Shown here piece after piece: positions 21,697 through 22,572 of a stretch of 64,000 nt of DNA. Origin of the DNA: Thalassospiraceae bacterium LMO-JJ14 (lineage in GTDB: Bacteria > Pseudomonadota > Alphaproteobacteria > Rhodospirillales > Casp-alpha2); NCBI GenBank assembly GCA_021555105.2, contig CP134604.1, positions 992,001-1,056,000 of the forward strand. The letters are read 5' to 3'. The stretch's first letter is position 1, and each line of letters begins with the position of its first letter. The notes beneath the pieces were generated by a model. That model saw nothing but the letters and a program-made list of their open reading frames with translations, had not been told where the DNA came from and did not search any database. Both the position numbers and the translations under genes were made by a program.

Positions 21697-21891
21697 TCAG
21701 TCCGTCTTGCAGGACTTGATGCCGAACGGCACATAAGCCGGGCACCAGCGGATGATGCCGGTCAGTAGCGGCACGACACCGACCCATCCCCAGACGGCGT
21801 ATTCGTGCCCCGAGAAAAGGGCAAAGGCGATCAAGGCAAGGCCGACGACGATGCGAAGGATGCGGTCGATGCCGCCAACATTACTGGTCAT
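21697..21891 (-). CDS. DUF2892 (YgaP-type) small membrane protein
   Basis: A 64-residue protein with two membrane helices: GGIDRILRIVVGLALIAFALFSG and WGWVGVVPLLTGIIRWCPAYVPFGIKSCKTD. The GWV..PLLTG..R.CPAY..FG motif with its Cys residues defines the DUF2892 family, the membrane part of YgaP rhodanese proteins; such proteins are often tied to sulfide or persulfide handling. The two Cys in the tail could form persulfide. Its promoter region carries a SqrR/BigR-type box and a perfect FNR box. AGGAGAG lies upstream of the ATG. Confidence 0.88.
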   Translation of the reverse strand: MTSNVGGIDRILRIVVGLALIAFALFSGHEYAVWGWVGVVPLLTGIIRWCPAYVPFGIKSCKTD

Positions 21892-21904: not shown

Positions 21905-21924
21905 ATATTCATATTGTTGAATAT
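21905..21924. promoter_or_regulatory. ATTC-N8-GAAT box (SqrR/BigR-type operator) at the DUF2892 promoter
   Basis: ATATTCA, six bases, TGAATAT is a perfect 7-6-7 palindrome whose core is ATTC-N8-GAAT. This is the form I recall for ArsR-family sulfide sensors SqrR and BigR. It covers the predicted transcription start of the DUF2892 gene, so bound repressor would shut it off. Confidence 0.7.
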
Positions 21925-21965
21925 GTATAAGCGCACCGCGCCGTTTCCGCTTTGATACAGATCAA
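21924..21965 (-). promoter_or_regulatory. FNR-activated class II promoter of the DUF2892 gene
   Basis: TTGAT-ACAG-ATCAA (21952-21965) is a perfect FNR/Anr box. On the minus strand a -10 element TATACA covers 21929-21924, predicting start near 21917. The FNR box is then centred at -41.5, the exact class II position. Control by oxygen limitation is inferred. Confidence 0.65.
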
Positions 21966-21988
21966 TTCACGCAATCAAACGACGGCGC

Positions 21989-22504
21989 TTATTGTGCAAA
22001 TTCGTAACGGTCGGCCAACTCGTCCAGCGCTTCCTGGGCACAGGCCTCATCGATGTCGCCCCCAGGTGCACCGCTGACGCCGACAGCCCCGATACGCACA
22101 CCGGCGGCGTTGATCGGCAATCCACCCTGCATCATCTTGATGTCCGGCAGCCGGCTGAGGTTCCGCGCCAGTTCCGGACGACTGGCGACCAGCTCGCCGG
22201 TCGGTGTCCCGGCCATGATCGCACCGCGCGCCTTGCCGCCGGCAATGACGATGGTCTGCACGGCGGCGAACTGGCTGCGCAGCACGGCAATGTCGTCACC
22301 GCCCCGGTCGACGACAACGGCCGAAACGGAATAGCCTTTTTCGGTGCAGGCAGCGACGGTCTTGTCGGCGATATCGCGGGCCAGCTCGGTGCCGATGGAT
22401 TTCACGTTCAGAACATCGGCGGCGCGGGCCTCAGTAGCCCCCAGCGCAATCAAAGCGGCGCCGAAGGCCAGGCCCGTCATGGTGATTTTGGAAGTCTTGA
22501 ACAT
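21989..22504 (-). CDS. GlcG/HbpS family (DUF336) protein with signal peptide
   Basis: A 171-residue protein beginning with a signal peptide (MFKTSKITMTGLAFGAALIALGATEARAAD), then the DUF336 fold: DIADKTVAACTEKGYSVSAVVVDRGGDDIAVLRSQ, later KMMQGGLPINAAGVRIGAVGVSGAPGGDIDEACAQEAL. GlcG is a small protein of glycolate loci and HbpS senses haem and redox in Streptomyces; the function is uncertain but haem binding is plausible. ATG 22504 has GGGAGAG upstream; a longer start is less likely. It has its own ATTC-N8-GAAT box. A cytosolic relative is encoded near 62 kb. Confidence 0.85.
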   Translation of the reverse strand: MFKTSKITMTGLAFGAALIALGATEARAADVLNVKSIGTELARDIADKTVAACTEKGYSVSAVVVDRGGDDIAVLRSQFAAVQTIVIAGGKARGAIMAGTPTGELVASRPELARNLSRLPDIKMMQGGLPINAAGVRIGAVGVSGAPGGDIDEACAQEALDELADRYEFAQ

Positions 22505-22548: not shown

Positions 22549-22572
22549 ACATATTCTTCGGGTGGAATATGT
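22549..22572. promoter_or_regulatory. Second ATTC-N8-GAAT box, upstream of the GlcG-like gene
   Basis: ACATATTC (22549-22556), eight bases, GAATATGT (22565-22572) is a perfect 8-8-8 inverted repeat. Its core is the same ATTC-N8-GAAT as at 21907-21922. It sits 45 bases from the GlcG-like start and also 78 bases upstream of the PgeF start on the other strand. Confidence 0.7.

Follow-up and report, generated by a model that had tools for sequence, protein, structure and literature searches.

A DUF2892 promoter with an FNR-type box and a putative sulfane-sulfur operator, conserved within one alphaproteobacterial genus

The promoter of a small DUF2892 gene in Thalassospiraceae bacterium LMO-JJ14 carries an FNR-type box and, over its -10 element and predicted transcription start, a palindrome resembling the operators of sulfane-sulfur-responsive ArsR repressors. 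Because both sites are kept at near-fixed spacing in six of six orthologues in the genus, a reading of dual control is supported, in which FNR-type activation at low oxygen and persulfide-relieved repression likely converge on one sigma-70-type promoter. By its sequence elements, the promoter also appears to belong to a sulfane-sulfur regulon that includes HbpS, YeeE/YedE transporters, sox genes, persulfide dioxygenase, DsrE and rhodanese.

Architecture and conservation of the DUF2892 promoter

The window analysed here is a stretch of 64,000 nucleotides from contig CP134604.1, and its features are collected in Table 1. The initial annotation had described an exact FNR box, a TATACA element and a palindrome over the predicted start; all three were found at these positions, and the FNR box is the sole exact match in the window. 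The product, described there as a tiny, cysteine-bearing membrane protein, is matched by PF11127 at 85.7 bits over residues 1-63, which is the whole protein. Orthologues within the genus are 66-88% identical.

Table 1. Features of the DUF2892 promoter region (window positions)
Feature	Position	Strand	Remarks
DUF2892 / YgaP-like transmembrane protein gene	21697..21891	-	64 aa; two Cys near C-terminus
Proposed SqrR/SoxR-type operator, ATATTCA-TATTGT-TGAATAT (ATATTC-N8-GAATAT)	21905-21924	-	centre 21914.5; overlaps -10 and start region
Predicted transcription start	21917	-	from -10 and box spacing alone
-10 element TATACA	21929-21924	-	
FNR-type box TTGATCTGTATCAA (TTGAT-ACAG-ATCAA)	21952-21965	-	centre 21958.5
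HbpS-like haem-protein gene, signal peptide	21989..22504	-	directly upstream of DUF2892 gene; PF03928, 83 bits (scanned from a 22525 start; 22504 preferred for its ribosome-binding site)
Second perfect operator	22551-22570	-	between HbpS gene and divergent pgeF-type gene; no FNR box

Counted from the predicted start, the centre of the FNR box would lie at -41.5, the class II position named in the initial annotation, and a short leader with AGGAGA would precede the ATG at 21891. The -10 element keeps a constant spacing to the box across the six orthologues (TATACA, TATATA, TAAACA, TATACA, TACATT and TATCAT); as it overlaps the operator, the conservation of each is not independent of the other.

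Counting the present genome, the family search recovered the DUF2892 gene in six members of the genus and gave no DUF2892 match in two further genus genomes, which are less complete or contaminated. In all six orthologues the FNR box agrees at 9-10 of 10 positions and lies between -65 and -72 relative to the start codon; the operator follows 42-44 bp from it, sometimes in degenerate form, with matrix scores of 17.0 to 38.5 (three of the six operator sites helped to build the matrix; the other three, in G530, G604 and G606, did not). The sequence between box and operator diverges among these relatives while the spacing holds.

The core motif ATTC-N8-GAAT is near background and too common to serve as evidence by itself, with three matches in the window against 1.4 expected, and 35 genome-wide against about 20 expected from base composition and 11 for a reversed control pattern. 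A genome scan with this core, as proposed in the initial annotation, is thus unspecific, but the 12-base form ATATTC-N8-GAATAT is rare and stands before sulfur genes: there are three perfect copies in the 3,893,486-base genome against 0.03 expected from base composition. Two of the three lie inside the window, 646 bp apart, and two of the three are accompanied, at 40-44 bp, by an FNR-type box, with a -10 element in the same register. When the window was scanned with a matrix built from relatives' sites only, the site at 21905-21924 came out top (35.0) and that at 22549-22572 second (21.2), with the next non-overlapping match at 7.8. The frequency of the eight-base core might favour a chance AT-rich palindrome next to a chance box, but the probability of such a coincidence is very nearly negligible; it is strongly disfavoured by the conservation of both sites in every orthologue, and by the expected scarcity of perfect 12-base sites. 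The second perfect operator, upstream of the HbpS gene, was absent from the initial annotation and has a counterpart at the same place in two relatives (G385 and G386).

A role for the FNR box region in RNA structure was considered and rejected, since its hairpin is strong in just two of the six genomes. A long, terminator-like hairpin of high GC content follows the HbpS gene in G385 (L066/L291; z -4.2) and G386 (L067/L292; z -3.0) and has the box at its apex; at window positions 21938-21988 there is only a weak version with GCGCCGT/ACGGCGC arms (z -0.3). The FNR box may also be part of the upstream gene's terminator.

In the family's other genera the DUF2892 genes do not have the operator, and among DUF2892 loci of other genera and classes it is found in almost none. 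Comparison within the family, where these genes lack the operator but some keep a TTGAC-N4-(A/G)TCAA box near -70, suggests that Crp/Fnr control of the DUF2892 promoter is older and that this genus acquired the operator later. A GTGA-type palindrome, for example GTGATTTTTATCAC, is carried at much the same distance from the start (about -72 to -76) by nine DUF2892 loci outside the genus, most of them beta- or gammaproteobacterial (L094, L095, L105, L110, L111, L116, L124, L127 and L129); there is a hint here of Crp/Fnr-type control being widespread across the DUF2892 family.

Further operators and a predicted sulfur regulon

The third perfect operator, at genome position 2,679,608 (locus L018), stands before an operon whose two genes encode YeeE/YedE-type proteins (PF04143), which are sulfur transporters. 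In the promoter of this operon an FNR-like box, TTGATCCAGATCAT, is separated from the operator centre by 40 bp, and a TATATT element is spaced from that box just as TATACA is from its own in the DUF2892 promoter. This arrangement is shared by the relative G385 (L172), with a weaker box (8/10).

A composite pattern of FNR box followed by operator matches twice in this genome, at the DUF2892 and YeeE promoters. Across a sample of the class, six of 384 other genomes had one match each against three control matches, and a class-wide composite signal was rejected as background level outside this genome. When the box was relaxed slightly, 16 of 199 genomes from the order gave matches, the present genome among them, against one control match. 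Within the genus these fall at DUF2892, the small YeeE operon and ccoN; several of those outside it have no recognised sulfur gene nearby. Four genomes of another genus of the family (g280; L202-L205) carry TGAT-N4-ATCA with GTGGAATATTCG-N6-CGAAT after it; the surroundings are alike in all four, with a small gene of unknown function nearby and no recognised sulfur gene adjoining.

Operator sites alone were found more widely. In G385 and/or G386 they precede the genes for HbpS, DUF2892, large YeeE proteins, a periplasmic rhodanese, a DsrE-like protein and a PCu(A)C copper chaperone, and ccoN, with further sites before soxC (SoxC identity confirmed), soxW and soxX. The operator-like site upstream of soxC, ACATATTCGTTAATTTCATTATAT, is letter-identical in both relatives (L225:10898-10921 and L227:10820-10843). 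In the present genome, regions fetched for orthology and not for the motif have sites before soxX, soxW, ccoN and the gene for a Blh-type persulfide dioxygenase; a weak site (score 14.9) lies upstream of the rhodanese gene, and further sites are found before two DsrE genes and between YgaP and YeeE. The predicted regulon would comprise at least these genes, among the matches listed; some of the sites are degenerate, and several counterparts in relatives trained the matrix, making them supporting and not independent evidence. The initial annotation had considered a single gene, and the predicted regulon would be much larger.

A perfect palindrome, GTATTCTATATATAGAATAC, at L006:1497-1520 (genome about 759,682-759,705) lies upstream of a gene for a 167-aa product that resembles a cysteine-dioxygenase-type cupin by eye and has no Pfam or NCBIfam match; this gene is a possible further member. 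At ccoN, the spacing between operator and FNR box varies (47, 28 and 36 bp). A nitroreductase-like gene lies divergently to ccoN here and in G385, and the operator may serve that gene instead.

Among the promoters listed, the box stands in register at those of DUF2892 and the small YeeE operon only. Most regulon members have the operator without it, as would be expected if the two sites were independent, with sulfur repression dominant, the box a minor modulation and no true AND gate. We consider this somewhat unlikely, however, as the box is retained almost letter for letter at near-constant spacing in all of the orthologues, at -41.5 relative to the conserved -10 position.

Candidate regulators and proposed mechanism

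Both kinds of regulator that the initial annotation called for, FNR-type and SqrR/BigR-type, are encoded in the genome. Among six ArsR-type matches, one at 2,881,190 (L224:13191-13541) is a protein of 116 aa with two cysteines. It aligns with SqrR at 98.8 bits and 53% identity, both sensing cysteines included (SqrR C41 and C107 positions), and has 87%-identical orthologues in G385 and G386. Its neighbours form a thiosulfate-oxidation cluster of soxW-like thioredoxin, CcdA/SoxV, SoxB, SoxA, SoxY and SoxX. Against the BigR equivalog NF040642 it scores 102.1 bits, below the cut-off of 155, and so is not filed as BigR; by sequence it belongs to the SqrR/BigR/SoxR branch, and from its gene context it may be a SoxR-type protein. 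The operators typical of this branch (ATTC-N8-GAAT) are present at the sulfur-gene promoters, where the sox-linked ArsR is predicted to bind.

A second ArsR paralogue (L042), with one cysteine, is related to NolR, SqrR and HlyU and has counterparts across the genus, at about 55% to the query. Were a protein of this type, or another repressor, to bind the palindrome, the promoter would not report sulfane sulfur. This is quite improbable given that there are sites inside the very sox cluster that encodes the two-cysteine ArsR, and that the targets are sulfur genes throughout.

The Crp/Fnr protein L048 has four cysteines that align with those of A. fischeri FNR and an E-x-x-S-R recognition helix (TTETVSR). 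It is closest to FnrL/FixK, and its 164.3 bits against the FnrL equivalog NF045989, the library's best match, fall below the cut-off of 300, making it FNR-type and not an FnrL equivalog. A different Crp/Fnr protein (FixK-, NnrR/DNR- or FtrB-like) could instead recognise the box, with nitric oxide or another signal as the second input: L049, closest to FtrB, shares the E-x-x-S-R recognition helix, and a DUF2892 gene belongs to the NnrR regulon in Bradyrhizobium (PMC6710368). We judge this unlikely in view of the four FNR cysteines of L048 and of the same box type at ccoN, a classical FNR/FixK target, in this genome.

Under the preferred reading of oxygen and sulfur control, an FNR-type protein would bind TTGATCTGTATCAA at low oxygen and recruit RNA polymerase from the class II position. 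A SqrR/SoxR-type ArsR, probably the 116-aa protein of the sox cluster, would bind ATATTC-N8-GAATAT over the -10 element and start and block polymerase, until sulfane sulfur linked its two cysteines and released it from DNA. Only with low oxygen and reactive sulfur in combination would the YgaP-like membrane protein then be fully expressed. For protein binding, sensing and AND logic alike, we infer this from the elements, their geometry, conservation and gene content. The two-input switch of the initial annotation appears largely right, both sites being conserved in every orthologue; its likely regulator, encoded in the sox cluster, may be SoxR-type and scores below the BigR cut-off, and the predicted regulon extends beyond the one gene. 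As a more tentative proposal, to which we give a little less than an even chance, one sulfane-sulfur repressor and FNR would form a genus-specific AND gate that jointly controls sulfur import and the YgaP-like protein, and possibly the cbb3 oxidase, the operator being apparently a later addition to a DUF2892 promoter already under Crp/Fnr control.

Relation to known systems and significance

The motif ATTC-N8-GAAT is the deduced SqrR site, and the footprint of the E. coli relative YgaV covers the start region of ygaVP, which contains an ATTC-N8-GAAT-like site (PMC9774250). The present system resembles those of the sulfane-sulfur ArsR repressors SqrR (Rhodobacter capsulatus), BigR (Xylella), SoxR/sHdrR (Hyphomicrobium) and YgaV (E. 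coli) in the two conserved cysteines of the candidate, in ATTC-N8-GAAT over the promoter, and in sulfur-gene targets that include a Blh-type dioxygenase and a YgaP-type protein. It differs from them in that the candidate is encoded in the sox cluster and scores too low for a BigR equivalog, and in that two target promoters also have an in-register FNR box. As in E. coli ygaVP, where YgaV is the repressor and YgaP a rhodanese with a DUF2892 membrane domain, a membrane domain of this type would be under a SqrR-like repressor. In contrast to ygaVP, the membrane domain here stands alone without rhodanese, its gene is not linked to that of the repressor, and its promoter has an FNR-type box.

A TTGAT-N4-ATCAA box centred at -41.5 from the predicted start and an encoded four-cysteine FNR are shared with FNR/FnrL class II promoters, whereas the sulfur-type operator overlapping the -10 and start is not. 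In Hyphomicrobium denitrificans, loss of SoxR/sHdrR alters cbb3 oxidase, nitrate respiration/denitrification and haem genes, an effect that the authors regard as probably indirect (PMC12423496). Sulfur and oxygen control are thereby shown to be intertwined in Hyphomicrobium; in the present case both inputs appear in one promoter.

In the literature searched for links of SqrR, BigR or DUF2892 with FNR/FnrL, to which subscription journals mostly did not belong, no promoter with an FNR box and a SqrR-type operator was found. The parts are already known, and it is the conserved promoter joining them that this search did not return. For this sulfur-oxidising lineage, the site matrix also predicts the membership of a sulfane-sulfur regulon. 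With both inputs in one conserved promoter, a direct link between sulfur and respiration becomes testable, and if the AND gate is true, sulfur oxidation would be tied directly to low-oxygen respiration.
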